In this document: positions 9,267 to 50,743 of the stretch, piece by piece | Layout: the number at the start of each line of letters is the position of its first letter | How positions within the stretch are numbered: position 1 is the stretch's first letter | From: Porphyra umbilicalis | Taxonomy: Eukaryota > Rhodophyta > Bangiophyceae > Bangiales > Bangiaceae | Length of the DNA: 64,000 nt | NCBI GenBank assembly: GCA_002049455.2 | Contig: KV919117.1 | Span: 1-64,000, forward strand | Reading direction: 5' to 3' | Notes under the pieces: generated by a model | Databases searched by the model: none | What the model was told of the DNA's origin: nothing | Seen by the model: only the letters and a program-made list of their open reading frames with translations | Position numbers and translations under genes: made by a program

Positions 9267-10773
9267 GCGCGGCGGGGGACGGGGGGAAGGGAGGAGTGCG
9301 GTGGCCTGCGAGCCAGTGGAAAGGGCGAGCCAGCGGAAAGGTGTGGCAGGTGAGCGCGAAGAGATAGAAAGGTGTGAACGCGGGGGGGCTGCGCGGATGC
9401 GGCGGAAAGAAGAACAAGAGTCGGTGGCGGCGTCGCGTCCCATCCCTAACAAGACGAGCCGGCGTGGTGGCACGGCCACCGGGGCCCAGCACGGTCACAA
9501 ACGAAGCTGCTAGAACTCGGTGCACACCAGAGCTAGTGTCATGAAAGAAGGAGGGTCCCAGTCCCCCACAGCACCTGAGAAGGAACCCGAAGAAGCCAAC
9601 CAGACAAAGAATGACAGAAGATCGTGAACACCGTTGAGGTCCAGACGCTGCTGACAAGATGACACGTCGACTGAGCAGGTCCGTTCGGGAGGAAGACAAC
9701 AAACGCGAACAGGACATAGTTGCAAGGCAGTTGAATCAATCTCGTTGCTCAAGTATCGCCAAGGATCACCAAGAGTGCGTGTCCCATGACTCACGCTATT
9801 GAACAAGAAACACGTTTCCGCTGATGCGGAGAGTTCGGAAAAAGCTTAGATGCATTCGATCGCCTCCATGGCCGACAGTGCCGCAGCCATGGGGCAAGCC
9901 ATGAACGTGGGGTGAGGACAGTATCGGCCGGTAACCAGCGTCAGTAGATTGTGCACGCCACCTCCCTGGTCCTATCAAATCGCGGCGAGAGGTGGGCTCG
10001 CCGCTAGGAAAGATTTCCACTACGGCAATGTACACAGAATGAGCGACTCTTTGCAGAAACTAAACAGCACCCAGAAGCCTAGGTCCTGCCGCCATTGTCG
10101 TCAGCGCAAGTGCCGTGAGCGTGGCTTCCACGGCCGATCTGGTATTAACTTGGATGCAGGGAGGAGGATTGGATGTCTTTGGAGGATCATGGGGGGGGAT
10201 CGCCGGCAAAGGAGGGTAAGTGGGGGGGTGAGACGGCCACCTACCCAAAGAAACGCACGGAGAGGGGGGGTGGCATGGAAATGGAGATCGGAGATGGCCG
10301 CCTGTTCGGATCAGGGCACCACAGCAAGGCCTGGTTTGAAAAGCAGCGCCGGAGAAGTGTCTGATGCTATCGGGCCGGGAGACAATTGAAAGGAGACCCC
10401 AGAAGCGCACACCAGACTCAAACTTGGGGAGCGTGCGCTTACTCTGGCGCATAATGCGCATGCTGTTTGCGGCCTAGCAGAGTAGGAGGCGCGGTTTGGA
10501 AAAATGACGAAAAAACGATAGGGAAAAGTATGAAAAATGGAAAGCGCAGTGACCTCACCAGTGTATGCCATGTAGCGACACTGCTCTCGAGGGCAAAGAA
10601 GAAAATAGGCACACAAGGCTACGTATTGGGTGCTGGGCTGTAAGGCTCGATGCAGATTCCATTTGCCGTTCGTGGATGGATGATGGTCTGTGACCCCTAT
10701 GGTACCCGAGATGGCACATTTGCAAGCCGTAGTCAAGTTGCACACATTCGCGTTGGGTCATCTTCGAGCGTTA
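9267..10773. other. No gene recognised
   Basis: The first few hundred bases, read on the minus strand, are a pyrimidine-rich stretch that could be the leader and promoter of the gene starting at 9266. The remainder holds only short frames. Confidence 0.3.
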
Positions 10774-10865
10774 CAGTCGTTCCACCAAATATCCAGCACA
10801 CTGCCGAGATCAATTGTACCATCGACATGTCGGATGTGCCGTATTTAGCCTCGAATCTTCCTTGG
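10774..10865 (+). repeat. Left-end-like copy of a TA-flanked transposon terminus
   Basis: CAGTCGTTCCACCAAA directly after a TA (10772-10773) is the same end sequence as the element at 13639. Similarity continues imperfectly for about 80 bases, through TCCATCGACAT-like sequence and ATGTGCC. No matching right end was found before 13 kb, so this is probably a fragment. Confidence 0.5.
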
Positions 10866-11599
10866 TTTGGACTGCATCTCGAAAACATCTTGCGAGAAAC
10901 CAGACGGATCAGCGGTTCTGGGCGACGCTGAGAGAGTAAAGCCGCTCGATGCCAGTTCATTTTCATCCTCGAAAATCCTGACGGCCGTTACACCTGCTGT
11001 TGGGCCCGATTGCCACTCTCGTGGAAGCCTTGTAAGGGCTGCGCTACCATAATCTCCCCCACGCACACACGTGGAGGGCGCTTTTGCGTGCGAATGGCCA
11101 TTGTCACCTCATATGTTGCCTCTGCGGGACCGCTGACGGCTTTCTCTGGTCATGCCACTCCTTCAGCTCGAGGGTCAACCAATGAGAGACCTCCTCCGCA
11201 CCCCACTTCGTGAGGAGACCCTCAGTAGATGCTTCTCTTGTACCTGGCTCAGACTAGGCTCCTCGAGTCCCCCGGCTCATAGTCCTGAACGACCTTCCTG
11301 GCATTTCGAAAACAGCCGATGGGTCCCGCTGACGTCTTTGGGCCCTGCACGAACCCATGCCGTATGACCCAAGGCCCAGTGGCCAATTCGGTTGCTCCAG
11401 CGCCCGTCACGCGCGCGTGGACACCCAGATTCGACTCGAGCCCGTTCTTCATATTCCGACTCGCTGGCAATTGAATGCTCACCATGGCTCAGCCGAAGAA
11501 TAAATCGCCATGAATAATGTACATCCCAGTGTCTCACCACAGCTGGATTGTAGACGGGTTCCAAATAACTCAGGATGGATTACGATCTGAATCAAACGC

Positions 11600-11735
11600 G
11601 ATCATCATCTCGCTGTGCAGCCCGAGTCCGCAACAGATTTCGATCGTCGCCATCCGCCACACTACTCGAATCGCCTTGGATGCCCGCCGCATTCGAATGC
11701 AGCAAGAACGCGAAGTTGTGATGGATTGGGCGTGA
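11600..11735 (-). repeat. Dispersed repeat copy A
   Basis: Read on the minus strand, this stretch shares GTGGCGGATGGC, ACGAT, GCATTCGAA and neighbouring bases in the same order with plus-strand 18770-18900. It is a diverged dispersed repeat of unknown type. Confidence 0.45.
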
Positions 11736-11815
11736 GTGGAAGGCTGCGGTCACAGTCGACTGGTGACCTCTCGGCGAAGAGCAGCCTTGCTCGGGGCTGG
11801 TCCCTCTAAACGGCA

Positions 11816-12808
11816 TCAAGCAGCGGGAATGCCGCAGTGCCTCCCCCCCCCCTTCATGGAACCGAAATCGCAGAGTTTCAAACGCACAGGGGGGGTTTCT
11901 GAGGCCACGCTCTGGGCGCGAGTCTTGATCTTGACGACCCACGTGTCGCTGATCAGCCCTTTTGGTAGCACAATCGTGTCGTGTGAGGCACGATGCACGC
12001 AACGATGCCTCGTTCCAGACGATGTCTGCCGACGATTTGGTGACAGAGCAGTGTGGAAAATTTCAAATGTCGCTGAATCACAGTCTCCGTCGTCGCAGCT
12101 GTTCACTGCACGGTCTGGCAGGCCACCACCGCCTGAAGTTGACAGCAATGGCTGCGCAACACGTCTGGTTTCTCGGCCGTTTTCAATCCCAGGCCGCAAG
12201 CGCTTTCTCGACCACCCAGCCACATCCGAGCTGTAGCGTAAGTTGTTCTTCGGTTCGTGCGGCATTACGCGATCGGGTCCCGTGGCCAACTGTGAGGCCG
12301 CCGAAGAGAACCTGTTTCGCGGTCTGCAGGCGCTCATTTTGTTTTCTGACACAGCCACGGATGCCTTTCCGCTTGCCCTCTTTCTCCTCGCGCTCTCGTT
12401 TGCGTATGTGCTTTCGGATTCGCGTGCTTCTGTTTTTCCACCAAGGGTGTACAGCAGCTCTCGAGCGGTTTTATTATTTCGCTGCGTCGCGGCGTACGCT
12501 CGCGACGATCGCGACTTTTGCCCGCCGTTCATTTGCTCCCGATGAGCCGTGCCTTCCGGGCCGGGATTACAACCCGCCAATAAGCCCATGTCGGCCGTGG
12601 GGTTGAATTCTGGCCGACGGTGTTCCTTGAAATGAGGTTCCTGAGTTGTTGTTATAGGTTCTGACGTGACAACCGCTCTTCCTCTTCCTCCTCGCACCTT
12701 CTTCTCTCGCTTTCGCCGTGCGCGCGGACTTGAGAGGACTGTGCTTTCGGTTGCTGTGGCTCTTTTGATTTTCACGGACTGCTGCTCGTCACCCTTTCCA
12801 CGCATCAT
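11816..12808 (-). CDS. Doubtful 330-codon frame, possible kinase-like remnant
   Basis: A single open frame with basic, Ser/Arg-rich composition and no confident domain. Near its C-terminus, RCVHRASHDTIVL is followed about 30 residues later by LKLCDFGS, which recalls the HRD and DFG motifs of protein kinases. The catalytic HRD Asp and the Lys/Asn of the loop are absent and the spacing is long. GC-rich DNA often leaves long frames open by chance, so this may not be a gene. Confidence 0.18.
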   Translation of the reverse strand: MMRGKGDEQQSVKIKRATATESTVLSSPRARRKREKKVRGGRGRAVVTSEPITTTQEPHFKEHRRPEFNPTADMGLLAGCNPGPEGTAHREQMNGGQKSRSSRAYAATQRNNKTARELLYTLGGKTEARESESTYANESARRKRASGKASVAVSENKMSACRPRNRFSSAASQLATGPDRVMPHEPKNNLRYSSDVAGWSRKRLRPGIENGRETRRVAQPLLSTSGGGGLPDRAVNSCDDGDCDSATFEIFHTALSPNRRQTSSGTRHRCVHRASHDTIVLPKGLISDTWVVKIKTRAQSVASETPPVRLKLCDFGSMKGGGRHCGIPAA

Positions 12809-13310
12809 CGTCAGGTTGCTTTAGCACGAGGGAGAAAGAGAGCGACAGGGATCCTCGTCCGCGTCGCAGCGTCCGGCGCGCCCCGCCATTATTCAGGGCG
12901 ATGACGCTTGGGGCAGGTACGCCAAACCGTGCGGTTAGGCTGGCCTTGGAGACTGGTGTGGCTCTGGCTCGACATCTCCTCGCGCAGCATTTACTTTCTG
13001 AGCACTGACGCGAACACCGCTGAGCTTCTGCGTCGCCTTCGCTCTTTGGCTGCATTTTTGCTTCTCACTTTGTACTGGTGTGTGTTTTTGGATGGTCTCC
13101 GTTACACTGGTGCACCGACAGTGCCACCGAAACCAGATTAAGCGACCTTCGTCTGTTCAGTGTGGCACAGGGGAGGACAACGCCCACCGCGAGGATGGCG
13201 GTGGCGCAGTCATCGGCTGGCAGTGGGTTTGGCGAAGCCACTTGTCCGAATAGCAGGTATGACCGACAGTTGTTCTGGAGGCATCTCGGCACTGCGGGTG
13301 GCTGGCGACG
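12809..13310. other. No gene recognised upstream of the split transposase
   Basis: This could contain a degraded N-terminal part of the transposase that becomes recognisable from 13311. Short helical frames such as GRVVARLGLTQPTRRQRH (plus strand, near 13340) are suggestive of a helix-turn-helix but not conclusive. Confidence 0.3.
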
Positions 13311-13638
13311 GTGCTGGGACGAATTTCCGCTTACACGGCGTCGGGCGAGTGGTGGCCAGACTCGGTCTTACACAACCGACACGCCGACAACGTCACCTAC
13401 GACTTGAACTTCTTTCAAGCTGACAATGCTGTCACACTGTCTGACGCCAAGCATCCGATAGGTGAAAAGAATGACGTTTTTGCTCTTCTATCATCACTCC
13501 CTGGCTACCGCGCCTAGACCAAGACTTCTATTGAGACCTTGGACCGCGTCCGTCAGGCAACTGGCTTCTCCTACCGAAAGCTGTACCGGATGTGCTGGGA
13601 GCGCCACCATGAGCGACGAGTGGCGTTTGCGCGGGATA
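13311..13638 (+). pseudogene. Tc1/mariner (IS630-like) transposase, 5' half
   Basis: This frame contains the helix-turn-helix end of an IS630/Tc1-type transposase: VFALLSSLPGYRA, then, after an in-frame TAG at 13515-13517, TKTSIETLDRVRQATGFSY and RKLYRMCWERHHERRVAFARD. It stops being transposase exactly at the TA at 13637-13638, where the element 13639-16033 begins. The same reading frame resumes at the TA at 16034-16035. Only one stop interrupts this half after 13311; its true start is not resolved. Confidence 0.75.
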
Positions 13639-14274
13639 CAGTCGTTCCACCAAAACCCTAGCACACCCGCGGGACCAATAGTTCCATCGACATCTCACAT
13701 GTGCCTATTATGCTCTGCAATGCTGTATCCTTTAGACATGCGCGGTTGAAACTCTCTCGAATATGACCAATCCACGATTACAGCGGAGGCCAGGCGGGCC
13801 TCAGGCACCTTCTCAAGAGGGACATGGGCTTTCTGAAACAGTATTTCTGAGACAGCTGAAGCTGCATCGGATTTCGGAACTCGTGGCAGGTCCATTGCAC
13901 GCGTGACGCGAGAATGTCGTCCACGTTCACACGTGTTGGGCACTATCGCGCAGGGTAGCAAACTGTTACCTCGATAAATCCTCCGGCCTTGCGCTCTCAT
14001 TGGCGCGGGAGTCCACAAAGCACTGTCCACATTTTCTCTGATGAAGAGGACCAATGAGAAAGCGCCAGAGTGCCTCTATGGCAAACGGGCCCTGCAATAG
14101 AGGCCCCACTTGTTATTAGCTCACGCGCTGCGGAAAGGCACGTTACGACTCGCTGGGATTGTTCCGTTGAAAGCCGTCGCCATTTTTCTCAAAATGGGCT
14201 CGTCTCACGCAAGCTGGAATGACACACGAGGCACCAACAAACAGCAAGGAATTCTCGAGGGCCTTCTCTGGCCC

Positions 14275-14867
14275 CCCACGTCGGGGGGCCAGGCCAGTCG
14301 ACCAATCTCGCTGTTCCGCCCGTGGCGCGCGTGCCAGGTGTCACACGTCCAGTATCAATGATAAGAGCGCGGCCCCGGGCGTGTCGCCCACTTCAGCTGA
14401 CAGCCCAGTGCTAGCAGGACAGAGACCAGTAGATCTCGTCCTCCGCGCCATTTCGAACCGCTGGCAAGTCCATTGCGAAATAATAGGTAATCGCAGCATC
14501 TTTTCACCCTATCTTGATCCCTGAACGATGGCCCGACGGTCCAGATCACAGGCCCGTTCTGGGTCGGTCGAGGTCACATGATCAAATTTGTGACGATCAA
14601 GACGCAGATATCGACCGGACGACGGCGTCGTCGATTCGGACCACGTCGCCGCCACGATCCGAGGCTGCCCCACCCCCCCCCCACCGCCGACGTCGCCGTC
14701 GCCGCGGCTGCGGCGGCCGCGTCCCCCTTACCCCCCCCCCTGCCGCCCCACGTTCCCCCCCGCCCCCCCCCCCCCTCCTGTTCCGATCACTTCTGTTTCT
14801 CATCTCGTCTTGCATTCGTGTTTCTTGCTTTCTTTTTCGTGCGTCATCTGCCTTATTCTTTGGGCCG
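14275..14867 (+). repeat. Left arm of a 0.6-kb near-perfect inverted repeat
   Basis: The stretch from about CCACGTCGGGGGGCCAGG to TTATTCTTTGGGCCGT recurs as its reverse complement at 15232-15830 with only scattered differences. Even the long C tracts are matched by G tracts of similar length. The outer 60 bases are more diverged. The DNA could fold into a hairpin with a loop of roughly 360 bases. Confidence 0.85.
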
Positions 14868-15231
14868 TCCCTTCATGTCGTTGAGGTAAATACATGCTGT
14901 TGTGTTTTCTTTGTGATTTTACCAGTACCGCCCCGGTCGATCTTCCTTGTTAATGTTGATTACCGCCGGTGGCTCTCTTGCATTGTGTTTTTTTTTTTTC
15001 AGGGGAAATGAAGATCACGGCGGTGGGTTTGTGCACTCTGTGTTCGAGGCGGCTTGACCCATCGCGGCTTGAAACTGCATTTTACGCTCTGTGTGCTCGG
15101 GCGAGAAGAACTGATGCCGAAAATAAGGAGGTGCAACGAACTGCAGCGACCGCGAACTCAGTTCCGCAGGGCAGAAGGAAGACCAAAACGAAAAACAACA
15201 AAAGCAGCCTGTGTTTCTATCAAAGACACAG

Positions 15232-15830
15232 AGGCACGGCCCAAAGAATAAGGCAGATGACGCACGAAAAAGAAAGCAAGAAACACGAATGCAAGACGAG
15301 ATGAGAAACAGAAGTGATCGGAACAGGAGGGGGGGGGGGGGCGGGGGGGAACGTGGGGCGGCAGGGGGGGGGGTAAGGGGGACGCGGCCGCCGCAGCCGC
15401 GGCGACGGCGACGTCGGCGGTGGGGGGGGGGTGGGGCAGCCTCGGATCGTGGCGGCGACGTGGTCCGAATCGACGACGCCGTCGTCCGGTCGATATCTGC
15501 GTCTTGATCGTCACAAATTTGATCATGTGACCTCGACCGACCCAGAACGGGCCTGTGATCTGGACCGTCGGGCCATCGTTCAGGGATCAAGATAGGGTGA
15601 AAAGATGCTGCGATTACCTATTATTTCGCAATGGACTTGCCAGCGGTTCGAAATGGCGCGGAGGACGAGATCTACTGGTCTCTGTCCTGCTAGCACTGGG
15701 CTGTCAGCTGAAGTGGGCGACACGCCCGGGGCCGCGCTCTTATCATTGATACTGGACGTGTGACACCTGGCACGCGCGCCACGGGCGGAACAGCGAAATT
15801 GGTCGACTGGCCTGGCCCCCCGACGTGGGA
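15232..15830 (-). repeat. Right arm of the 0.6-kb inverted repeat
   Basis: Reverse complement of 14275-14867. The 360-base spacer between the arms also has weakly similar, diverged edges, so the original repeat was probably longer. Neither arm nor spacer encodes a recognisable protein. The open frames through the arms are Arg/Pro-rich products of CCG-type repeats and appear identically on both strands. Confidence 0.85.
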
Positions 15831-16033
15831 AGCCAGTGAAGGGCCTGGAGAGCTCTTCGATGTCATGCGTTGCCGTGTGTGATGGAGCACCCACAATCTA
15901 TTGAGCACAGAAGTTTGTTTGAGACTTTTTCAGGGACACGTCACTTCATTAATGCCGCGCTTGCAAGAAACCAGGAACATATGGGACGCACTTCTGATGT
16001 CGGCGGAGTGCTAGGTTTTTTGTGGAACGACTT

Positions 16034-16634
16034 TATGCTTTCGATTCCACTGCGTTGCATTGTCTCACTAGACGAGACGCACAAGGAAGGAGGAGACGTG
16101 CGACGCAGGCGTGGCCGGAGGCTGTGTGGGATGCGGTATGACTGCCTTTCCCACGTCGAAAAGAAAATGCTTCGACGATTCACCATGATGGCCGTATCGT
16201 ACGAGACAGGCGTCTTCCACTGCGAGACAACACCCACTCCCATGTCGCAGACCTCGGACGATTGGCTGATATACCCTGCAGGGCTGCGGCCAAGGATGAA
16301 CAAGTTTGTCCCAGGGCTACCCTAGGCGCTTAAAGCCCAAACGTGTGTCCTGTTTCTAGAAAACGCAGCCATTCATACGGCTGAAGCGGAAGCGTGGATT
16401 GTGGCGGCGGGTGTCTTCTCTCTGCGGCTGCCTCCATACATCCCAGATTTTCATCCAATCGAGCAGGTCTTCAGCGAACTGTCAAGCCTGCTGAAGACGA
16501 TGCATCATTCCTTCGCAGAGGAGCCCGACGGCCTCCGCCACGCATGAGCCATCATCTGGCTGTCGGCGGCAATTATCTGCAAGCACTTTGATATTGCCTT
16601 CGAGAGGCCGTCTGGAACGTGCCGGAGCTCGTAG
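16034..16634 (+). pseudogene. Tc1/mariner (IS630-like) transposase, 3' half
   Basis: DDE catalytic half of the transposase whose 5' half lies at 13311-13638. The frame opens with MLSIPLRCIVSLDETHKEGG (first catalytic Asp in LDETH). After an in-frame TAG at 16323-16325 it continues with VLFLENAAIHTAEAEAWIV and LPPYIPDFHPIEQVFSEL, the classical final D/E block. The second motif is normally DNA or DNAS; here it reads ENA, so a catalytic Asp has become Glu. A second stop (TGA 16545-16547) precedes the last helix, and the frame closes at 16632-16634. It is dead as a transposase even before counting the insertion. Confidence 0.82.
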
Positions 16635-18177
16635 GTCCAGAGTAGCCTTGAAGGGATGCCTTTGAGCCGTTGCCGATGAAGCGAGAGTAGATGGTGTCGA
16701 AGAGTGAAGCATGCGAAGACAAGTTTGTTGCCAAAGACGCAAGACAAACCAAAGGCGAGAAAACGGATGCCAACACCAACTCTCAACGATGAGAAGACAT
16801 CCAGCGCGTGACAGTGTCAACCAAGCCCGCAGGAAGGTCCTCAATGGATGGATGATCCTGCCCGGCGCTCCCTCACTTTCACGAAATAAGCTCGCCCACA
16901 GCAGACGCTGACGAAGACGAGCAGGACACAGTGTGTCCACGGACGAATTTCCTCATCATCTCTGCTCGTGCTTTGAAAACGACGTTTTCTCGCATGATCG
17001 AGGGGCTTGGTTCGTGAACGAACAGGCCAAGGCTTTCAGAAAGCTCCGCTGTGCCGAGATGGTTGAAACCGGTGCGCTCACCGCCAGCGGCACCAATAAT
17101 GGCTCCCCCGGGCAGCCCGGCGGCCGGCATCTGGCTTCCATCCGGCCCGCCAGCCGCCGGCGAGGCTTTGCGAGACTCGTCAAAGACGCAGTGTGAGAGA
17201 GGTGGCCCTCCTCGAAGCACAGCGTGCAGCTAGAAAATGAACCAGCCGATGACCTTGTAGCGGGTAGACCCGAGAGTGACATGCAGGTTAATAATTGTCA
17301 AGGATTGATCTCACGACAAGCATAGCACGAGGCTGAGATCCGGCAAGAAACAGATATCACGTCCACAGGAAAAGTACCAGGTACAGAGCCGACCTCGGGC
17401 ATGATTTTATTTTATTAGTCGTGATAGAGCAAGGGAAAGCCTCGGCCCGGAACTCGGCCGGTACGCTGGGACTGGAAGCGTATTCGCTGCTTTTCACCCC
17501 GCACGTGCGCGCGTTGTGCTTGTCATGCAAAAACCGCCTGCGGTACCCAGATATCGAGCACTCCTGAACAAGGTGGGCCCCGTCCTCCTCGTCAGTCCCC
17601 GCGGAGGACCCATTCACGGAAGCAGCCTCCTCGGCCGGCCCCTCGGCGCGGCTGGAACCCGTCGGAATCCATTCGGGCGCGCGACGTGCATCTGCCGTCC
17701 CCTCGCCGGCGGGGGCAGGGCAGGTGCGCAACGGCGAGATCCCATCCCTGGATGACATGGTTCCGGCCCTGTACGGGGACCAGTCAATCCGAGATGCGGG
17801 ACAACGGCCGCACGTTCGGACTCACCGGGGGAGGAGACGGCACAACGACGGTGTTGCCACCCCTACTGATGAACGACGTCGCCGACACAGAAGCTTACAC
17901 AATGGGAGGAGCGGTAAATCGCGGCAGACAGTGTGGCCGGAGTACCAAAATGAATCTCGCATCGGGCGGGGAAGCCATTGTCGACCGATACAACCGCGGG
18001 CCAGGCTTCCCTCCTTTTGTAGGGTGCTGTATCGCAGCACACCAGCATGTGGCCCACGATGCCCCAGAACAGCACGTAGAAGGCCGTGGGGGGCGCGATC
18101 AGGGCGTCGCCCCAAAAGCCGTCTGTGCATCGCAGACACTGCGTTATTAGGTTTCCAAGAGAGGGGGAGTCAAGAGG
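16635..18177. other. No confident gene
   Basis: Short frames on both strands. The plus frame around 16933-17196 (EFPHHLCSCFENDVFSHDRG) and the minus frame 17758-17357 (EEDGAHLVQECSISGYRRRF) have protein-like composition but no family I recognise. Both could be further transposon debris. Confidence 0.3.
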
Positions 18178-18640
18178 CGGAACGAGCGCTTTGCCCTAGA
18201 AACGTCATGCGCGTGGAAAATACTGGCAACTTGGGCTGCTGCGAGACGTGGCGGGAGGGGGGCAACGAGCGCCTGGCCCCCGACACGTCCTGCGCGTGGA
18301 AATCACTGTCAATTCCCGTTCTCGCGAGGGGGGGGGGGGGGGGGCGCGACGAGCGCCTGGCCCCCGACACGTCCTGCGCGTGGAAAACACTGACAATTTG
18401 GGTTCTTTCGTGGGGGGGGGAGGGGCGACGAGCGCGTGGCACCGGACACGTCCTGTGCGTGGAAAACACCGGCGATTTGGGTCCATGCGATGGGGGGAGG
18501 GGAGACGTGACAGGCACAGGGCCTCAAAATCGCCCTGTCCGTCGGAGACCCTGCCAAATTTGGTCATAACGGGGGGGAAGGGAGGGCGGGGCGAATGCCT
18601 GGCTGCAATTTCCTGCGTGTCGGAACCAGTGCTATGTTAA
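18178..18640 (+). repeat. Minisatellite, about 80-bp unit
   Basis: Five to six imperfect copies of a roughly 80-base unit. The core is ACGAGCGCCTGGCCCCCGAC, then ACGTCCTGCGCGTGGAAAAC, then an ACTG..AATTTGGG block and a G-rich tail. The copies at about 18262, 18348 and 18426 are closest to each other; the outer ones (18181, 18505, 18592) are decayed. The G tract at the unit end varies in length. Confidence 0.8.
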
Positions 18641-19334
18641 GGCATGCGCGATGCGGCGGCGGGGGTATGGTTCATGCAATACCACTGTCACGAGCCGTTG
18701 AAGAAGGCCATCCGGGCCGCGAGGCTTCGCTGCTCCAATGCTAAGAGATGCCGACCGCAACGACAGAGAGCTGCCACGCCGAAATGGTCACACTTTCGCG
18801 CGCCTGCGGCATTCGAACTCGGCCGACACCGACGCCGGATCCAACAGGTGGCGGATGGCAACGATTGGAATCTTTCCCGAAACCGGGCTGCGTAGCAAAC
18901 CGACGATCGGTTTCAATACAGATCGTGATCGGTACTGAACGGTTTTGTATTTTCACACGTCGAATTTGGGCCTCGTCACTTGGTTGGCTTCGATTCATGA
19001 TGACTAATATATTGGACGTGTCCGGATCGGGAGCTACGTAGTTTAAGGAGACGCGGGCCTCTCATCAAGGACGGGTTGTTGCCGAATCTGGCGGTCTCTG
19101 ACCCGCGGTGGGATTTGGTGTAAAGAAGTTGGCCCATTAGTTCCGTGGCACACTGATGGGGCATTCGAGGGGTGCTGGCAGTGGCTCTCAAGGAGGGGTC
19201 GGCGTGTGCGCTTTTGCACGTGTCTGTCAATTCTGCATCTTGTTTATGGTACTGCCGGTCTCGGCTGAGTGCCAGGGTGTTTGTAAAACGACTGTACTAT
19301 TGGCATGTTTGGATTTGAACTTCGCTTTGCTCTA
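18641..19334. other. Non-coding, with dispersed repeat copy B
   Basis: No gene is seen. Positions about 18770-18900 are the plus-strand partner of the dispersed repeat found inverted at 11600-11735, sharing GCATTCGAA and GTGGCGGATGGC blocks. Confidence 0.4.
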
Positions 19335-22256: not shown

Positions 22257-24182
22257 CGCAACAAGCGAGTCGCAGCTGATGATCAACGCGCCGCAGCTAA
22301 CGCACGCCAAGCCGCAGCTGACCACCACCAGGCGCATGTTCAAGTCCAGCAAGCGGCTTCTCAAGCTCAAAAGGTCGCCTGGCGAAGCGCCGCTTTTGAA
22401 AGGCAAGCCGCAGCTGACGACCGCCAAACTACGGCTGTAGTCCAGCACGACGGTGCGGACAACCGCGAAGCCGCAGTCTTCTCCCACGCCTCTGACAAGC
22501 AAGCCACGGCTGACGACCGTCGTGCAGCAGCGGACGACCGGCATGCCGCCGCGGTCCACCATCAGGCAGCCACGGACTAGCGACAAGTATCCGCGACAGA
22601 GCATCACGCAGCCGCTGAAAACAATCAAGCCGCCTTAGACATGCGAGCGGCTGGCGCCGCTGCAGCTGAGCTACCTGCCGCCGACGCGCGCTCCAGGTTA
22701 TGTGCCATAGCAGTTGCATTTAACAACGCCCAGGCGGTCGCTGCAGAGAAAGACCGTCAAGAGGCCGGCCTCTACCGGAAAGCCGCCGCCAAGGAAATGA
22801 AGGCTGTTCGGTCGTGGGCCGCCTCTGTCAAAGCTTAGACCACCACCACGCTGGCTATTATTCCGACCAGCATCACACTGGCGATCACACCGACCATGAA
22901 CGAGTTGGGCTCTGCCGGCGCAGAGGATGCAGAGCGCGGGTACGCTGGCCACGAGCTGCTCGCTCAGACGGGCAGGCGAGCCGAGCAACCAACTTCAGCG
23001 GGCGAGTCGGTGAAGATCTCGACCACGCCTGGCGCGTCGTTCACGGCAGCAGGCAACCAGGGTGCCTATGGGGAGCCGGTTCAAGACACGCAATGAGCAG
23101 GTGACGACGCGAAATTGTCCGCAGGGAGCTCTCCGGGCCCGCCGCGCGCGCGGTTCTCCAGGTACAATTGTCCACTGTGGCGACAGGACATCGTAGGAAA
23201 CTCGCCACGCGACAAGGCCCCCCGCACAGCTTCCTGTTTGATAGCACCATACACAACTCCACCCGGTACGGCTTCCAAGTCGCAGAGCGTGTCATGGACA
23301 AAGTCGTGGACGGAGACGCCGACTACGGGAGAGGCAGCAGGCGACATGGCCGCCGCGGCCGCGGGTACCGTCAACACTGCAGACGGCAAGACCTTCGATG
23401 CCAAAGAGTCGCCGAATGAGGCGCCCCAGTAAAGAGCTGAAACAGCCTTTAATCCACCCGACTTTGATGCAGTCGGCGAAGTGGCCGCGGCTATGGTTGA
23501 CAGTGCCGCTGCCATCGATGACGCCATCGTCAACGAAAACCAATTGTCTTATGAGGCGCCCGAGTTGACGGCCACGACGCCGCCTGCTGGTGAGACATTG
23601 ACGGCTGCGACGCCGCATGCTGGAGGGGCAGCCGGCGACAAGGCCGCCGCCGCCGGCAAGGAGATGACCATCAACGTCGCCGATGCTGACGATGACCTTG
23701 GCGGTCCCATCGTCAACGCCGCCGCAACCGCCAAAAAAAAAGATGTCAACTCCACCGCCGCCTATATCATTGGGGACCAGTCCTGAGCGACGCCACCGCC
23801 GGGCATGCCCGTCAAGGTCGCACTCGAGATGGCTCCGTTGCCACCGCTCAGGCGGCGCACCGATAGCGGTGCCCCCTCTGGCGGTGGTGACTCCGCCGCA
23901 TCACGCAAACGCGGTCGAGATGCCGAGAATCCCTCGGCCCCGCCCTCCTACCAGGCGACGGCGGTGGCGGTGGGGGCGGCGGCGGCTGCGGCTGCCGCAG
24001 CGGCGTTGGCCATGAAGACGGCGACGGAGGCGGCGGGGGTGGCTGCAACCGCGTCAGCCGCAGCCGCCACAATGGTCAACCCTACCGTGCTGGACAAAGT
24101 CGGTAACGGCGACGCTGACGAGAGGGAAGCGGGAGGGGAGAAGCTGAGTGATGAAATCAAAGAGGCCGAGGGCGAAGAGTGA
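22257..24182 (+). pseudogene. Degraded Ala-rich repeat protein in one frame
   Basis: A single plus-strand frame stays protein-like for about 640 codons and is cut by only five stops: TAG 22578, TAG 22836, TGA 23094, TAA 23430 and TGA 23784. The first part is a heptad-like array of DDRxAAA or DRQAAAD units (such as ATADDRRAAADDRHAAAVHH). It continues as an Ala/Glu helix (AFNNAQAVAAEKDRQEAGLY) and then acidic Ala-rich segments (MVDSAAAIDDAIVNENQLSY, INVADADDDLGG). It ends with an acidic tail (DEIKEAEGEE). The persistence of one frame and one composition across the stops argues for a former gene. I do not recognise the family. Recoding or unusual splicing is possible but less likely. Confidence 0.45.
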
Positions 24183-25268
24183 GAGAAAGCAGACGTTGTG
24201 GCAGTGCGCGCACGCCGCGGGCGAACGAGCATCGCCCTGTGTCAAGTCGATGGAGGGGCCGGTTGGCGAGGTTCACGGCGAGGCGCGCGGCAGCGGAGTG
24301 TGGATTGGGAGTGTGGTTGTAATGAACAGCCATAGAGCTGGTGGAAAACTCCCATGCATGTACAATAGCCGACGCAACACGCACCAACCGTCGGAAAAAC
24401 GGAGAACATGAGATTTGTAGAACGTTGCACAAATCGCTACTACGTGTAAGAATAGCGAGCGACAGTCAGCCAGCGTGTCTGCTGCACTGTTCACTCGTAA
24501 CGATACTGACCAGCAGCATCATCTCTCCGTCTTGCAGAGGCAGAAATAAATGACGAGGAATATGCGGTTTAATCACTCCGAGACACAGCTGACTTGATCT
24601 GCTTCCACGTTGCTCCCACAATGCAGCAGACTCATCGGCCACGTGTCCTCGAGTGGCAAGAACTTTTCTCAAGTAAATTTGTTCATGTTCTGATAGTATG
24701 TCATCGATGGAAGAGGTCTGACGATTTTTTGGGGGGTTTTCTTGCTTTCCATTGCTCAACTTTGGGATGGAGTTATGTGGTCTCCAAACATGTTCGAACA
24801 CGTAACGGTGCGGACATCAGTCGACGAGGATCGAACGCTGGTGCTGCAGCTGACACCACTTCATTGCTTTGACTCGGTCGCAGTGCCGTGGGGTTGCTAC
24901 TTCCTGGCCGCTGTGCACGAAGGCCTCGATTTCTTTTCCGCGGTGCACGGATCCTGAACATTGGGCGCAGAGGCAGACAGTACGTGGCAGTTGGACACGC
25001 TATTCCCTCCCTGCTCGCCTTACCGCTTCTCCACGGCCTCGGCGCGCCCACCCACGCTGACCCCCTCGCCCCCCCGCCCAGCCCCCGCCGGCCCTGAAGG
25101 CGCCACCACAAGGGTCGGCGACCGCCTGCCTGCCTGCTACTAGTATCCTTTGCGTCATTTCGCCCTTCTTTTTATCCAGCCCATGTCTGCACCCCTCACG
25201 GACCAACCCTAACCCGCTGCCACATCCGCCCTTCGACTTCCACACCCGTACATCCCTGTCGTCTCCGA
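24183..25268. other. No gene recognised
   Basis: Short frames only. From about 25060 the sequence becomes C-rich, as in leaders of other genes here, just upstream of the broken gene at 25269. Confidence 0.35.
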
Positions 25269-26605
25269 TGGCTGGCAATGCAGCACCGGTTGAACCACGC
25301 GATGCCGCCGCTGCCGCGACTGACAGCGACCCACTACCCGAGGCTTCACACCTTCATGGCGGCGGCAGCGGCGCTTAGGGCGGCGGATCTGCGGGCGGTG
25401 GATCTGCGGGCGGCGGTTTTGCGGGCGGCGGCCCCACCGCGGTCAATGTCAACTTGTGAGACACGCGGTACCGGCCGGTGACAGTGGCATCGAGCACACG
25501 TGGCTCATCATCGGACCTGAAAAGACATTGGACGAACCGGATGACAGCGCCGATGACACATCTGAGAAGCAGCCGCTGTTGTTCGACGACGTTGAAGTCG
25601 ATGAGTTCAATTTCAAGCTCAAGCGTCTATCGGGCCAGGACGTCTTCGCTCGGGCCGTCTGCCGGCTCGCCGACCGCCACATTTACCCCTCGATTGTCGC
25701 TGCGCACGATGCTTTGCGTCTGGTGGCCGACGCGCCTCAGCTGCCTGACGACGAGCGGACCAACCAGCCGTTGTGAAGGGTCATCTTTCCGCCTGAGCAT
25801 CTGTCCCCCAAGGAGTGTCACGGTGCTCCACCGCGCGCACGCCGCTCTCAATGCATCAGCCACGCAGCAGGTCAAAAGCGGGAACGTCTTCATTGAGTCT
25901 TGCGCTAACGTGAGCGGCCACCCCTGGCTGAACTACAAGCTGCGGCAGCACCACCGACACCGCGCCAACAAGGTGGCCAAAGTGGCGTGTGCTTTGGCCG
26001 CCTTCACCGCGGTGCTGCTGAGGCAGCAGACAAAGGCGGTCGGGGTCGTACCGGCCGGCATCATGAAGCGCCTGCGGTCGGTGCTGCGGCACGCTACGAG
26101 GCCTGCCGGCGTGGAAGAGGACGGCAAGCGCGAGCGCAGGAGATACCGGCAGGGAGCTGGCGGCACGATAATTCCCAAGATAATACCGAATGTCAGGTAG
26201 GTGCGTGCAATCGTGCGGCGCGCGGTAGATCACCCCGACCAGATTCCCCACAGCTTCCTCTGTTTGGATGCCCACGGATTCTTTCGCATCTGGCGCTATG
26301 TGATCAGCACCGCCACGCGGGGCAAGCGCCTGTATGAGCTCAATGACTGGACGAGAAAGCGACTCACCGCTCGCTACCATCATCGACTGCGTCGTGCCCC
26401 TGCCGAGCCGGGAGGCTCAGTTGTGCCAACAGCGCCCGCCGCCGCAGAGGATGGAACGGCAGACGTGCCAGCTGCTCCTGCTTCGGGCGCGCCCAATGCG
26501 ACAGGCTTTTCGGCCGCTGACGCTCGTGCTGCGGGTGTGGCAGCTCATGGTTCAGGCGCGATGACGCGGTGGGCACGGCGGGAGCAGCGGGAGAGGAGGG
26601 CCTGA
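25269..26605 (+). pseudogene. Unrecognised broken gene
   Basis: Three pieces in different frames read as one protein. An N-terminal Ala/Gly-rich start (MAGNAAPVEPRDAAAAA, then GGGSAGGG repeats) is interrupted by a TAG. A piece at 25456-25776 contains FDDVEVDEFNFKLKRLSGQD and VCRLADRHIYPSIVAAHDAL. A frame-shifted continuation to 26200 contains GHPWLNYKLRQHHRHRANKV. A last piece, 26201-26605, contains FLCLDAHGFFRIWRYVIS and a Pro/Ala-rich tail. The composition is clearly protein-like, but I cannot name the family. Given the surroundings it may be transposon-derived. Confidence 0.45.
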
Positions 26606-27163
26606 AGGGGGCGGAGGGCGCGGCGGCCACGGCAATCTCGTCCTCAGCCCAGGGCGAAGTCATCTTACTAGATGCGGAGCTATTGGAGACATTCCAGATG
26701 ACGCGTTGCTCGTACTTGGAGGACTATAGTGAGACGGGAATTGTTGGGGGGGGCGGGTTGCGAGGGAATTGTTGGGATTCGAATATTGTCCCTTTCGGCT
26801 ACAGCCACAATACCGGTGTGAATGGTCCTGGGGAGTTCAAAATTATCGTCCAACTCTTCCCCTAACTTCACAGGACGGCAAGCCGCCAGGTCTCATGTAA
26901 AAAGCCAATCCCTAGGCTCCTGCGACTGATTTCCTTCCAAGTCGTCAACTTGTGAGACTTGAATCTGCGACCCCCTGCAAAGCCAACCAGCTTTAACTGG
27001 AAATTTCTGGGCACAGAGCCGGGAATGTGACAAGGGCAAGGTGTGCCAGATGGTGTGGCGGCAGTCGCGGCAAGTGGAAGGAAGACGGGGTCAAACTCGT
27101 TCAAGGACGTGACGGTCAAGGCGCAAGGCTCGGCAAGGTCGGGCGCTACGACAAACAGACATC
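26606..27163. other. Leader of the copia fragment; LTR not established
   Basis: TGTTGGGATTC at 26770 looks like an LTR start, and TGGGCACAGAGC at 27008-27019 resembles the initiator-Met primer binding site used by copia elements. No second LTR exists in the window to prove it. Confidence 0.25.
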
Positions 27164-28469
27164 ATGGATGGAGGCGCTACCGGCATGGGCGTCATCAAGA
27201 TCGGAAAGTTGACGGAGACGAACCTCCATGAGTGGCGTCAGCGCATCAAGATGATTCTAGCGCTGCGCGAGCTTGACTACATGCTTGATGAAGACAGCAA
27301 GCCGACGGACGTGGAGGACTGCGATTTGGCTTCATGGAAGCGTCGAGACACGAAGGTGGGCGCCATCATCGGGCTCACCCTTTGATATGAGCAGCTCGAG
27401 CAAGTTTCGGACTGCAAGACGACGGCGGAAATGTCGTCGACGCTCCAAGGTGTCTTCCAGCGCAAGAGTTTGATGAACAAGATGAAGGCGCGAACCGAGC
27501 TCTACACCGTCGCAATGAACGTCGGCGAAGGCATGCTGGGTTACATCAACCGCGTGCACAACCTCGGTGAGAACCTCAAGGCAATGGGCGGTGAGGTGAC
27601 GGAGATAGATGTCGCCATGGGCATTTTTCAACGGCCTGACGTCAAAGTACGAGAACCTGCTGGTGGCCCTGGACGCCAAAGGCGAGAGCGAGCTGAGCCT
27701 CGAATTTGTCAAGAGCCGCTTGATTCAGGAGGAGCGGCGTCAGGCGGACACGTCACCAGCGACCAAGCACATTGGCGACATGGCACTCGTCGGCGCCAAT
27801 TATCGAGGTCAAGGCCGCCGTGGTGACTGCTCCAAGATCGAGTGCTACTACTGCTCTAAATTCGGGCACATCTCTCGCGACTGCCCAGTTCTCAAGGCCA
27901 AGAGGCATAGCAAGGACAAGGTGGCCGCTATTGCGGCTGAAGACGGTAGAGACAGCGACGACGCCATCTGTCTTGTTGACAATGCGGCTGACAACGATGA
28001 CTTCTCCAAGTCGTCGCTTGTCGACTCTGCGGCGTCTGCACACATGTGCTGGATGCGCGCATGCTTCGACGACTACGAGACAACCACGGGACGGAGCGTC
28101 ACGATGGGTGACAAGGGGTCCGTAGCCACTGCGGGCGTCGGAATTGTCGTACGCAGCGTCATCGTTCACGGGAAGACGCGCAAGATCAAGTTGGATAAGG
28201 TACTCCATGTTCCTACTATGAGCTTCAACCTCATGTCGGTCAGTTTGATGGAGGAACGCGATGCGGAAGTGACATTCAAGGGTGGGAAGGCCATCATCAA
28301 GATTGGCCATAAGGTCGCTGCGTGCGGCACGCGGAAATGTGGGCTCTACCATCTGAACGCGGCACCCATGTCGGATGCTGCTGCAGCGGCCTCTCTGTAG
28401 CTATGGCATGAGCGTCTTGGCCACGTGAACGTGGCCAGCGTCAAGGGGATGACAAAAGAACTGTTAGGG
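27164..28469 (+). mobile_element. Ty1/copia gag-protease fragment, broken
   Basis: The order is that of a copia polyprotein N-terminus. Gag opens with MGVIKIGKLTETNLHEWRQR. After an in-frame TGA at 27383-27385 gag continues (LEQVSDCKTTAEM). One extra T in the T run near 27620 shifts the frame, and gag goes on (FNGLTSKYENLLVALD). Next are a CCHC zinc knuckle (CYYCSKFGHISRDC) and an aspartic protease site (SLVDSAASAHMC). The pre-integrase motif LWHERLGHVNVASVKGM comes last, just after a TAG at 28398. The protease reads DSA where copia elements normally have DSG. Integrase, reverse transcriptase and RNase H are missing: homology ends at about 28469, where a GC-rich non-coding sequence begins. 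Confidence 0.85.
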
Positions 28470-29024
28470 CGCTTCTCGGGCGCTGTTAACGCCCCGCGCC
28501 CCTCGACTCCAAGGCGCAGATAGGGCGCGCATAGAGCATGGATAATTCCACTATTCAAGTTCATGATTGCCTGGTGCCCAGCACGGCGTCAGCAGTCGAC
28601 CATGGTCGCCATGTCCCTACGGACACTGACATGATTGCCATGTTCGTACGGTTCAAGCAAGGGTCTGGTGCTGCCTCTGCACTCAACGCAGCTCCGGGTG
28701 ATGGAGATGGTAGTAGAACGCGTTGTTGAGGGGCCACAGCCTCTGCAGGTGATCCGACGGGGGATGGCGGTGCCCACCGCTACCGTCGCGTCTCGCAGCG
28801 CAAGGCCGTGGGGCTGCGTGACGTATTTGACTTGGTTTGGTACCTTACGGCAGCAGAGCGCCTGTAGGGTGAAGGGTGATGTTGTAGACGTGGCGGTGGT
28901 TGGGCTTGATTGTGCAGTAAACAAAGACTGACGGGGACTCGGCAGTAGCGACCCCAACTGCGATCATTAAATAGACAATTGGATCAACTGGCGGCTGCTA
29001 TTACAGAAGAATCACGAAAGCATA
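28470..29024. other. Non-coding, GC-rich element-like sequence
   Basis: It begins with TGTTAGGGCGC, which recurs at about 29105 in a similar 55-base context (TGTTAGGGCGC, GGGCGC, GTTAACGCC-like, CGCCCCTC, GGCGC). The two copies are direct and imperfect. No coding frame is convincing. Confidence 0.35.
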
Positions 29025-29324
29025 GGGTGCTACCTTTAGTGAGTGTGTGTTTATGGGTGCTACTTGAGGCGTGTTGGGGGCGTCGTTAGCCTTCGGAAGG
29101 GCGTTGTTAGGGCGCCACTAGGGCGCGGTTACGCCGCACGCCCCTCACCTAGCGGCGCTACTGCGAATTCTACTCACAAGCACCGTTTGCTTTGTTGTGC
29201 TCCTTGCTTCTTTTTTCAATGAACTTTTGGCTACAACAAGTCCTGGCGGTACAGTACGGCCCCGAAGAACGCCTGGGGTTGGCCAGAAACGTAGCACCCT
29301 TCCTAGGCCATTAGCGTAGCACCC
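29025..29324. repeat. Small element with inverted GGGTGCTAC/GTAGCACCC motifs
   Basis: GGGTGCTAC occurs at 29025-29033 and 29055-29063. Its reverse complement GTAGCACCC occurs at 29291-29299 and 29316-29324. Two further GTAGCACCC copies lie at 30146 and 30187, inside the next element. The paired inverted arrangement suggests sub-terminal repeats of a roughly 300-bp non-autonomous transposon, but exact ends are not resolved. Confidence 0.45.
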
Positions 29325-30034
29325 TCACTGGAACGTGCAGTTTGGATTTGTGATTTGACAAGCGCGACAGTCTTGCTGCTGCGTGCTTATATTTTTCGGG
29401 AATGGATTGAATGACCAAGAAATACGCATTTTATGCTCTGGAAGCGCACACGCACCAGCAATTCGCGATCGCACCCTCTCTCCCCACCCCCCCCCCCGCC
29501 CCCCCCCACACCCCGTTCCGCCGATCCCCGAACCCACCTCCCTCGCGACCGCGCATTGCCGGCGCTCACCGCGACCACCCCGACATCCGTTGATCCTCGA
29601 CGCAGCCACAAACGACGATTTGCCCGAGAGGTGCCCTGCGTTGCACGGTTTCGAGAAGGTGAGTGCCTGGAGACTGATATTTGCTATGAAGTCTGGGGGT
29701 AGCGGCGGTTGAAGCGAGAGGGGGGGGAGGGGAGGCCGCGTCCGATCGGGAGGGTGCCGTGCGCTTGCGTCCAGCGCCTCCAGAAAGAAGACCGCTGGGG
29801 GGGTGCGCCCAGCTGGACGCCGTCGGCGGCTCGCCGTCGGCTGCTCAATTCGAAGTACCTGCTCATTGCCGGTTCGGCTGCTGCCACTTACAATTTCTTT
29901 GCTTCCCCGAACTGAAACCAAATCTGACTCAACCAGTGTTGCCTCACTGAGAGAGGGGCTACTGGGTCTGGACCCACTCGAAGATGGTCGCGAAGACCAT
30001 CTTCGAGGGCGCCCAACTTCGGGGCCGTACTGTA
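29325..30034. other. Non-coding, C-rich
   Basis: Contains C tracts at about 29488-29508 and competing 60-250 codon frames on both strands without motifs. CGAAGATGGTCGCGAAGACCATCTTCG at about 29979-30005 is a short near-perfect palindrome next to the following element. Confidence 0.35.
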
Positions 30035-30765
30035 CAGTAGGCTTGTATTTCACGCCCCCAAACCCGGGGCGTGTGGGCGTGTCACGCCCGATCACGCCCG
30101 ATCACGCCCTAATCACGCCCCTTTTGGGGGCGTGAACACACACAGGTAGCACCCATTGTATACGAATCTGCTCGTTCCTTGATTATGTAGCACCCCTGTC
30201 GGACTGGGGGCGATCAATGTGAACTGCTTTGGGGCTGTACTGTATAGAACCAATCAATCACAGACCGAAGGCTGCCTTGGCATCCTTCAAGTACGACTCT
30301 ATGTCAAAGAGGTCGAAGAAGAAGACGCGTGGCTTCGCCCCATGTACGGGAGGGGGGGTAAATTACGATGACGGACGGCGGCCAGGCAGTCTTGGCATCA
30401 CTGTCGCTGTAAAACAGAGGCAACTGCAGAAGCAGAAGCTGCCGTCGCAGCCGCAGCCACCGACGCAGACAATGTGGGAGGGGCACCCGTCTAGGAGGGG
30501 GCCAACCCCGTGGCGCTTGGGGCGGCGTGCGAGGGCCGGTGGGCTGATCGTCTTGGGCCGCAGCAGTGCGCCCCCGCCCACTGTCCAGTGCATTGGATTG
30601 CACTATATTAAGTTCGTCGGCGGCGTATTTATTTTATGAGATCACGCCCCAGTTCACGCCCTTTTCTGCTTGGGCGTGATGAGTGATCGCGTTAAAAAAC
30701 GTGCTAGCGATCACGTAAAACGTGACTCCCCAATCACGTAAAGGGCGTGAAGTACAAGCCTACTG
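30035..30765. mobile_element. 731-bp non-autonomous element flanked by TA
   Basis: Terminal inverted repeats of about 26 bp with one mismatch: CAGTAGGCTTGTATTTCACG at the left, and CAGTAGGCTTGTACTTCACG at the right read inwards. They are flanked by TA at 30033-30034 and 30766-30767. Near both ends are clustered TCACGCCC motifs, four or more within 30050-30125 and several in both orientations within 30640-30760, along with GATCACG variants. Such sub-terminal arrays are commonly transposase-binding sites. No transposase is encoded. Confidence 0.78.
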
Positions 30766-30963
30766 TACAGTGAGACACCGCGACAAGATCGGGAGTGACT
30801 TAACCTAATCTTTGCATTTTTCTATTCTTACTCCGGTCGTGGAGATGCAGTGTCATTTTGGAAACAGTCTTCTGGCCAGCGATCTTTCAGTGGGAAATCA
30901 CTGTACCAGACCGCCGATTCTCTGGTTCATCAAGACTTGACCGGAACGACGAGTCTACAGCTA

Positions 30964-31101
30964 CTCTCACAAAAACATGCCACTGCAACTCTTGCATAAT
31001 TGTTGCAAAATCGGCCTTCACGGCGGCGTAGAGCTTCACGGCGGCGTAGAGGCCGAGTTTGCAGCAGTTGTGCAAGAGTTGCAGTGGCAGATTTTTGAGA
31101 G
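30964..31101. repeat. 138-bp hairpin-forming palindrome
   Basis: The left arm begins CTCTCACAAAAACATGCCAC and the right arm, read back, begins CTCTCAAAAATCTGCCACTG. The arms match with few differences over about 60 bases. The centre holds two direct copies of CTTCACGGCGGCGTAGAG. It may be a short foldback element or the footprint of one; no clear target duplication was seen. Confidence 0.7.
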
Positions 31102-31475
31102 AACAGCGTTACCCGTCCCGGTGATGCTTTGGATTGGCCGAATCGGCATATAGATGCGCCACGTTCTTTATTGTTTCGGCGATGATGACCTTGAGACTGG
31201 GGCGTACTGACGACACGGTCGTGCACCGCTATAGGATCCACTCTTCACCCGCGACCACCAGTCATGGTACTCGGCGCGCACCGCTCTGGGTCCAAACCAC
31301 GCAGCCGGTCCAATCCTTGTGGCCTCGCGGCGGCCCGTGGCGCCCGCCATGGCGGGCGTAGCACTTGAAACACGCGACGTGCAGCGAAGCGAGCCTCAAA
31401 AAATGGTGAAAAAAAAAAATGCGCCGCTGGCAGCCACCCGCGGCCGTCGCCCGCGTCGCCGTCGCTCCTCCGCGG
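31102..31475. other. Intergenic, downstream of the LETM1-like gene
   Basis: 3' flank of the minus-strand LETM1-like gene. An A tract occurs near 31410. No gene is seen. Confidence 0.5.
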
Positions 31476-33678
31476 CTACGTGCTGCTCGCCGACGCCGAC
31501 GCCGAAGCCGACGACGACGAGGAGGAAGACGGCCCGTCTTGGAGCTCCTTCATCAGCCGCCGCAGGTCCCCCCTATTAAAGTTGCCATCCTCGTCCGCGT
31601 CCAGCCGGCGCAGCGTCTCCCGGATGGCCGCCTCGTCCACGTCACCCGCGAGGACCGCCAGGCCCGCGGTGGCCTCCTCGAGCGAAATGACGCCGTCATT
31701 GTCCGCGTCGAGGAGCTTGAGTTTAAGGCCGACCTTGGAGTCGACCCGCTGCACGTCCCGCTCCAAGTTCTTGACGAGCTTGCGGAGGCGGCGCAGTTCT
31801 GGGCCGTCGACCGGGACTTCGGCGGGGGCGGCGGCGGCCTCGTCCCCGTCTGCACCCGCATCGGCGGCCTTGCCTTCTTCGGTCGTTGAGCGGATGGTCG
31901 ATTCGGCGGCGGCGAGCTCCGCCTTGAGCGACTCGAGTTCGAGGCGCTCCGACTCGACGGCAGAGGTGGAGGAGAGGTCCCCGAGGGACACGGCGATGCG
32001 GCCAATGACTTCGTCTTGGGCGACCTTGCGCTCCTCCGCCGACACTTGGCTGTCCTCCTCCTCGGCGGGGGCATCGGCGGCCGCATCGTCCTTTGCCGCC
32101 TCGGCCGGCTTGTCCGCAGCCGGCTTGGCGTCGGGCGCAGCGGCGGTCGCCTCGTCGGCGGGCGTTGGGGCGGCCTCTGCCGGCGCCGGCGCGTCGGCCC
32201 CCTCGGCGGCCATCTTTTGGGCAAGCTGCTCGTCCGACAGCAGCTCCCCATCGCCGGCCGCCGGCACAGCAGCCGCGTCGGCGTCGGCGGCCGCGCCGTC
32301 GGTCGGCTCGGCCGCATCTGCTTCGGCCTTGGCCTCGGCTTCCGCCGCCGCCGCCGCTGCCGCCGCCTCCTTCTTCTCCTTCTCAGCCGCCTTTTCGGCT
32401 TCCGCGCGGGCCTCCCGCTCCTCCTCTGCCTCAATGAGCTTGCGCTGGCGGCGGACCTCCTCCAGCCGCTCGGCAGACGTCAGCTCGCCGGCCGACTTGG
32501 ACTTGACATCATCAATCACGCCGTCGGGCAGCGAGCCGAGCGCCTCGGACACGTCGCTAAACAGGAACGCGCGGGAGAGGATCATGAGCGACGCGGGGAT
32601 TTCGCGGCTCTGCGACATCTCCAACCACTCCTTGAGCTGCCGCGCCCGCCACCGCGGGGAGATGCCAACGGTGCGGATGCCCCGGTCACGGCACGCGCGC
32701 GCCACCTCGTCCTCGGTGAGGCGGTCGACGCCGCCCTCCCACTGGATTTGCATGTCGTCCTTGGCAATGGAGTTGAGGCGGCTACGGATCTTGTAGCGGA
32801 GGAAGGGGTCCGCCCCATACGGGGAAAGGCCCATGTACTTGCACATGGCGACGAGCTGCGGGCGGACGGCGCCTTCGAGGGTGATCTCGTCCGAGAAGAG
32901 GCGCGCAAAGCGGTTGACGTCGGCGGGGTCGACGCGCTTGCCGTCGCGGATGGCGGCGAGGAAGCCCGTCAACGCTTCCGCGTCGGCGCGCACCGCCTCG
33001 CCGGCAGAGGAGGAGTTTTTCAACACCCGCGCCTTCTCCTCCACGACATCCCGCAGGTACTTGGCGAGCTCGATCTTGACTTTCAGTTGCCGCTTGAGGT
33101 CCTCCTCCGCCTTCATGGCGTCTTGGAATTGGGAGGGGAGCATGTTGGGGAAGAGCTTGAGCGCAAACGGCAGCGCAAACTCCATAAACGGGATGAGGAG
33201 GAAGAGGGAAAACGGGACGAGCCGCGCCAAATCCGACCCCGTGCCAATGAGGAAGTGGCGCTCCCGCCGCGTGAGCGTCTTGCCCTTGCTCAGCCGCTTT
33301 ACGATTTTCCACGAGCCCCGCACGTCGGCGGCGAGGAGCTTGGACGCCGCCCAAAAGTGGCGGCCCCACTCGACGAGCGCCACGCCGAGGGAGCGGGTGT
33401 AGGTGACGGCCGCCCGAGGGCTCCGGAGCGCCGTGCGCCACGTGATCTCACTCGCGCCCGCGGTGGCGGCGACGGCGCCACCGCCGCCGCCGCCGCCCGT
33501 CGCCGCAACGGCCGTGGCAGACGACGCCTTGGCCTTGCCGTCGGGCGTCGACCCACCGGGCGGGGCCGCCGAGGCGGCGCCCCTGCGGAGGATGCCCGCG
33601 CCGACGGGCGCCGACACGGCGAGCGTCTGGCCGCCCCCCGCCCGCCCGCCCAGCCGGGGGTGTCGCACGAGGGCGGTG

Positions 33679-33709
<31 letters not shown>

Positions 33710-47610: not shown

Positions 47611-50743
<3,133 letters not shown>

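Follow-up and report, generated by a model that had tools for sequence, protein, structure and literature searches.

Homogenised inverted-repeat arms and two spacer orientations in a non-autonomous TA-target transposon family of Porphyra umbilicalis, one copy of which interrupts a transposase gene

At the start of contig KV919117.1 of Porphyra umbilicalis (assembly GCA_002049455.2), an IS630-like transposase gene is read up to a TA dinucleotide and resumes more than two kilobases further on. What is the intervening sequence, how is it related to the sequence around it, and what has become of it since? The original prediction, made on the letters of the analysed stretch (64,000 nucleotides, hereafter the window), was that one TA-target transposon had landed in another and that its removal restores the reading frame exactly. 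The nesting was borne out with boundaries exact to the base, and the terminal repeats and the TA duplication that had been proposed were found as described (Table 1). We call the inserted element the guest and the surrounding transposon the host. Numbers preceded by C denote contigs of the searched assembly, which comprises 83.8 Mb in 665 contigs.

Table 1. Positions in the window of the guest, its parts, the host and the broken transposase gene
Feature	Position	Strand	Basis or remark
Guest transposon, non-autonomous, 2,395 bp	13639..16033	+	TA duplicated at 13637-13638 and 16034-16035; no Pfam match
Guest left unique segment	13639..14252	+	copy comparison
Guest inverted-repeat arm 1	14253..14912	+	arm alignments
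Guest spacer	14920..15184	+	both orientations among copies
Guest inverted-repeat arm 2	15191..15851	-	arm alignments
Guest right unique segment	15852..16033	+	copy comparison
Host transposon, 8,521 bp including guest	10774..19294	+	TA at 10772-10773 and 19295-19296
Broken IS630-like transposase gene, left piece	13305..13636	+	homology to relatives
Broken transposase gene, right piece	16036..16640	+	DDE_3 domain, E 1.4e-9 (X at stops)

The left and right flanks of the insert within the gene were searched separately in the genome. Both flanks were matched at 28 loci. In 27 of these the halves meet directly and in register, with zero bases between them, and the joined flanks are thus continuous in the relatives, as the prediction required; the remaining one, a second locus on C29, contains 264 additional bases. 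The empty site that had been asked for exists, the nearest being on C169, with a single TA where the window has two. The frame is continuous over the junction (ARD, then MLSIPL; ARVMLSIPL in relatives), and to this extent removal of the guest does restore it, but the gene stays broken: it lacks its start, with no homology to relatives upstream of 13305, and contains in-frame stops at 13515, 16323 and 16545 and, judged by eye, a frame shift near 16590. The second catalytic D is replaced by E. Despite the in-frame join the remnant is therefore dead. On its end branch of 0.11 the three codon positions carry 21, 28 and 33 window-only changes, a spread close to no selection.

Copies with the same ends, which had also been proposed as a check, are dispersed over the genome. 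The guest begins with CAGTCGTTCCACC and ends with GTGGAACGACTT, the right end being AAGTCGTTCCAC when read inward. Twenty-three copies, the window copy included, were cut from the genome, and in 16 of them neither end is damaged and a TA stands on both sides. Apart from the window copy, which is one of the 16, all of these finish with GACTG; its own T at 16033 has thus probably replaced the usual G later on. One copy (C630) has TG instead of TA at its right side, one (C45) has a decayed right end and one (C8) a different right end. Four of the 23 (C183, C345, C47 and C197) are incomplete in the stretch read, and a further copy on C41, partial in the stretch read, was left out of the set. All guest copy counts are lower bounds, part of the copies having been read, and those that include both C55 and C398 are inflated by one: these two have identical flanks and probably represent one insertion present twice. 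Since the guest is a dispersed repeat, chance is excluded as the source of the insertion pattern. None of its eight frames of at least 100 aa matched Pfam up to E 0.1, and a transposase inside the guest was rejected on this ground; the frames of five further stretches, on C151, C152, C125, C112 and C356, were judged by eye alone. The copy at C33:347547-349363 carries a 1.8-kb insertion, the matches on both sides of which overlap by 8 bp, perhaps the target duplication of another transposon.

What the original prediction had missed were the ends of the host at 10774 and 19294, the sharing of these ends with the guest and, inside the guest, a large inverted repeat with homogenised arms and a flipping spacer. 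The left end of the host is an exact TACAGTCGTTCCAC at 10772, and the right end is TACAGTCGTTTTAC at 19283-19296 on the minus strand, with two mismatches to the end motif. Allowing up to three mismatches, this motif matches four times in the window against 3.5 times expected by chance, so the host ends rest on homology and not on the motif. Homology between the host and a sequence on C364 extends to 19297, where the latter also has an end of its own, and relatives on C169, C152 and C473 align from the host left end. The relative on C169 is of full size (23807-38954, 15,148 bp), and its end motifs are exact on either side; that on C152 extends from 12900 to about 27787, and for that on C473 only the left end was found. 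Judged by these alignments, the host is an internally deleted copy of an IS630/Tc1-like element of about 15 kb. Missing from it are about 7.8 kb that correspond to 26008-33847 of C169 and contain the beginning of the transposase gene, and 13304/13305 is the deletion junction relative to C169. Three frames from this C169 stretch gave no Pfam match above cut-off, the best being Lipase_3 with 17.4 bits (cut-off 22).

The intact transposase of C169 matches Pfam DDE_3 with 47.7 bits (cut-off 28.6) and HTH_28 with 26.3 (cut-off 25). A TA duplication with terminal inverted repeats, as in the IS630-Tc1-mariner group, is present in the host (10772-19296), in the C169 element (23807-38954) and in 16 of the 23 guest copies. 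The host family thus resembles this group in its DDE_3 transposase, TA target and CAGT ends, but departs from it in its full size of about 15 kb, in a distance of 33 residues from the second D to E (in the 9 loci that fit the motif pattern, of 19 read) and in a score below the NCBIfam IS630 equivalog cut-off (NF033545, E 5e-23, 82 vs 100 bits). By these scores, its transposase is a member of the IS630-Tc1-mariner group and not an IS630 equivalog. Inverted repeats sought near host-type transposases at 16 loci gave one short match only (C264), because the element ends of this family lie kilobases away from the gene. A sequence search of solved structures gave no match up to E 0.01. At C131:101513-125533, exact inverted end motifs separated by 24 kb enclose an IS630-like transposase frame; this could be a larger family member or one carrying insertions.

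Elsewhere the window contains a head-to-tail array of about 13 near-identical copies of a 228-bp unit (47773-50736), a pair of direct repeats of about 363 bp with 90% identity (35073-35876) and a short tandem array (59822-60101). Just past it lies a phycobilisome-linker match (C357:69691-70059); there are 12 such matches on 8 contigs of the assembly, as suits a red alga, four of them on C665, which may be the plastid genome.

The core of the guest is an internal inverted repeat of about 660 bp, the arms of which face each other across the 265-bp spacer and begin 614 bp and 182 bp inward of the two ends. The arms were aligned in 22 of the 23 copies (C47, with one arm only, is missing); 12 have both arms intact and the other 10 a damaged or incomplete arm. 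Taking sites 61-600 as the arm interior (about 540 bp) and about 60 bp on each side as the edges, the two arms of a copy differ at 30/6463 interior sites (0.46%) and at 125/1137 edge sites (11.0%) in the 12 intact copies, and at 151/10737 and 211/1785 sites in all 22. Between copies, arms differ by 7.7-7.9% in the interior and by 14.7-15.8% at the edges. In the intact copies the interiors are therefore some 17-fold more alike within than between copies, with hardly any such effect at the edges. In the window copy 0/540 interior sites differ, as against about 90 to be expected had there been no conversion; an identical run extends over 561 bp, and the 20 differences between its arms all lie at one or the other edge.

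In the arm tree the two arms of one copy are sisters in 17 of 22 copies, as compared to a mean of 0.4 and a maximum of 2 in 200 random pairings, and the five copies with non-sister arms (C33, C76, C437, C55 and C398) all fall into a single young clade of the unique-end tree. By plain identity a copy's own arms are closest to each other in 15 of 22 cases, with one tie and six in which they are not. The window copy carries 27 changes from the majority in both arms, 13 of them private to it, and 16 in one arm. GC-biased conversion was not seen: changes found in both arms comprise 50 AT-to-GC vs 152 GC-to-AT, those in one arm 28 vs 56, and those in the unique ends 148 vs 201. The unconverted edge is not always 60 bp: in two copies of a second subfamily, B (C112 and C151), the arms differ as far inward as about 200 bp. 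The copy at C8:196180-199004 has the left unique segment at both ends and arms that are 99.8% identical, and is a further recombination product.

The spacer occurs as two isomers. In the 23 copies described above, which form subfamily A, it points one way in 11 and the other way in 12. This ratio near 1:1 suggested free flip-flop at equilibrium, which was rejected on a tree built from the unique ends (with 22 rows from A and two from B): three changes of orientation are needed, two of which are forced by well-supported branches, and none of 500 shuffles of orientation was as low as three (mean 7.6). Orientation fits the tree and is thus inherited, with rare flips. Subfamily B, at about 75% identity to A, has the same architecture, with arms 92-97% alike in the three copies read, and again both orientations: among the matches listed (40 of 321 candidates scored), 30 have a one-piece centre alignment, with the spacer collinear with C356 in 6, the query included, and inverted in 24. 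A B copy on C84 has ends 97% identical to those of C356 and an inverted spacer, and two on C112 have ends 93-94% identical and a collinear one. The 265-bp spacer, used as a query, yielded 30 matches, most of them within known copies; those on C66 and C5 lie outside assigned copies and that on C198 in a partial copy only. Given this distribution, a captured host gene was rejected as the origin of the spacer. At C125:186900-190500 a subfamily-B left end is followed by an open frame of 678 aa that by eye resembles a copia-type polyprotein.

The best reading of these data, in which we have considerable confidence, is that gene conversion between the arms, accompanied by rare inversions, acts in a family satellite nested in the host gene. 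The guest would be a non-autonomous IS630/Tc1-like member that shares its ends with the DDE_3-encoding element of about 15 kb and that inserted at a TA in the transposase gene of a copy of this large element, now internally deleted. Its two arms would pair, and one would be copied over the other, which would keep the inner 540 bp or so near-identical and mostly miss the edges of about 60 bp, leaving these to drift; occasionally the pairing would be resolved as a crossover and the spacer inverted. Recurrent conversion at the resident site predicts an identical interior between decayed ends in an old host remnant. It is unlikely, if still worth weighing, that the arms were equalised only during transposition and that the copies came in recently from unsampled lineages. 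Jumps of elements with terminal inverted repeats leave breaks that are repaired from templates, according to PMC4168063, and the mostly inherited orientation of the spacer would fit such an origin. The unique ends, however, have long branches next to near-identical interiors (median 0.037 in the tree, 0.083 in the window copy, corresponding to about 8% decay), and the host remnant around the window copy is also old. Taken singly, any copy could still, with small probability, have jumped recently from an unsampled lineage.

The ends connect the guest to its host. TACAGTCGTTCCAC is common to both, and the similarity continues inward: the guest is 81% identical to the host over 75 bp on the left and over 36 bp on the right, and 85% and 94% identical to C169 over the same lengths. 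With at most one mismatch the end motif occurs 262 times in the genome vs 25 times for a reversed control. These shared ends make the guest a probable non-autonomous satellite of the very family whose transposase gene it broke, and the transposase of the large element may have mobilised it. All known members of the IS630-Tc1-mariner group use a TA target, and a start with CAGT is common among them. Target and start being this widespread, and the middles of guest and host being unrelated, the two could be separate TA-target transposons with convergent ends, but we consider this improbable since a short motif would not account for 14 identical end bases together with 81-85% identity along 75 bp (E 1e-12 to 1e-17). 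A second nesting is found at C214:19444-21702, where a subfamily-B element lies within a different IS630-like transposase gene with the frame continuous across it; the translated pieces on its two sides end in SSKGML and start with RTSTMMAV, and C169 has KNMLRTSTKMAV at this place.

An origin of the pattern in assembly or polishing, with arms collapsed or cross-corrected and spacers flipped at random, is very improbable. Cross-mapping of short reads would indeed leave residual differences near unique sequence, where they are seen. Correction between arms cannot, however, create divergence from other copies, and changes private to one copy and common to both its arms (up to 22, in C8) therefore oppose this explanation, as do stems of up to 0.087 that precede the tips of the arm tree and an orientation whose fit to the tree none of 500 shuffles reached. 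The position of the insert between two coding pieces in one frame might suggest an intron or an ancestral component of the transposase gene, but this is as good as ruled out by the 27 of 28 relatives without any extra base at the site and by its nature as a dispersed TA-flanked repeat.

Among known systems, the closest precedent for conversion between the arms with rare inversions is Galileo, a Drosophila element of the P superfamily in which two inverted arms of about 575 bp stand apart from each other (PMC2775673, PMC4168063). In two Galileo copies the arms of each copy are over 99% identical, as against a difference of about 7% from one copy to the other, and the middle segments run in opposite directions (PMC2775673); the homogenised arms, the inverted middle and the long-armed non-autonomous copies are all as in the guest. 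Unlike the guest, with its TA target and internal arms, Galileo has a 7-bp GTAGTAC-like target and terminal arms, and the comparison there concerns 2 copies as against 22 with an edge effect here. Tetris (PMC4079207) also has a foldback-like structure, ends in common with a related element, DAIBAM, and a suggested possible homogenisation, but a Mutator-like target duplication of 8-10 bp and tandem repeats in its arms. The human Y palindrome P6 (PMC3723533) resembles the guest in frequent arm-to-arm conversion with rare inversions, and differs in being a single large chromosomal palindrome with GC-biased conversion, a bias absent in the guest. The inverted repeats of the guest stop short of its ends, which those of foldback and Galileo elements reach, and in place of a P- or Mutator-like target duplication of 7-10 bp it has TA only. 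The guest works like these elements and is classed apart from them by its internal arms, its TA target and its likely IS630-like partner. In the literature searched, which covered few subscription journals, no comparable element is reported in red algae or in the IS630/Tc1 group.

A nested insertion by itself is ordinary. The two cases found here, in the window and on C214, are satellites in transposase genes of what is apparently their own helper family. A further and improbable reading is that the palindrome is a maintained module, self-correcting and invertible, kept since before the subfamilies, now about 75% identical, parted; as a hairpin or cruciform it would perhaps aid replication, transposition or escape from silencing, as opposed to being a passively recombining repeat. 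The guest family comprises dozens of scattered inverted repeats that are alike in size but differ in age; in every one the unique ends serve as a clock, to which the window copy adds a second one in the host gene. The rate of conversion, the edges of its tracts, its bias and the ratio of conversion to inversion can thus be measured within one genome, questions otherwise studied on large chromosomal palindromes, and a Galileo-like behaviour is seen in another transposon superfamily.
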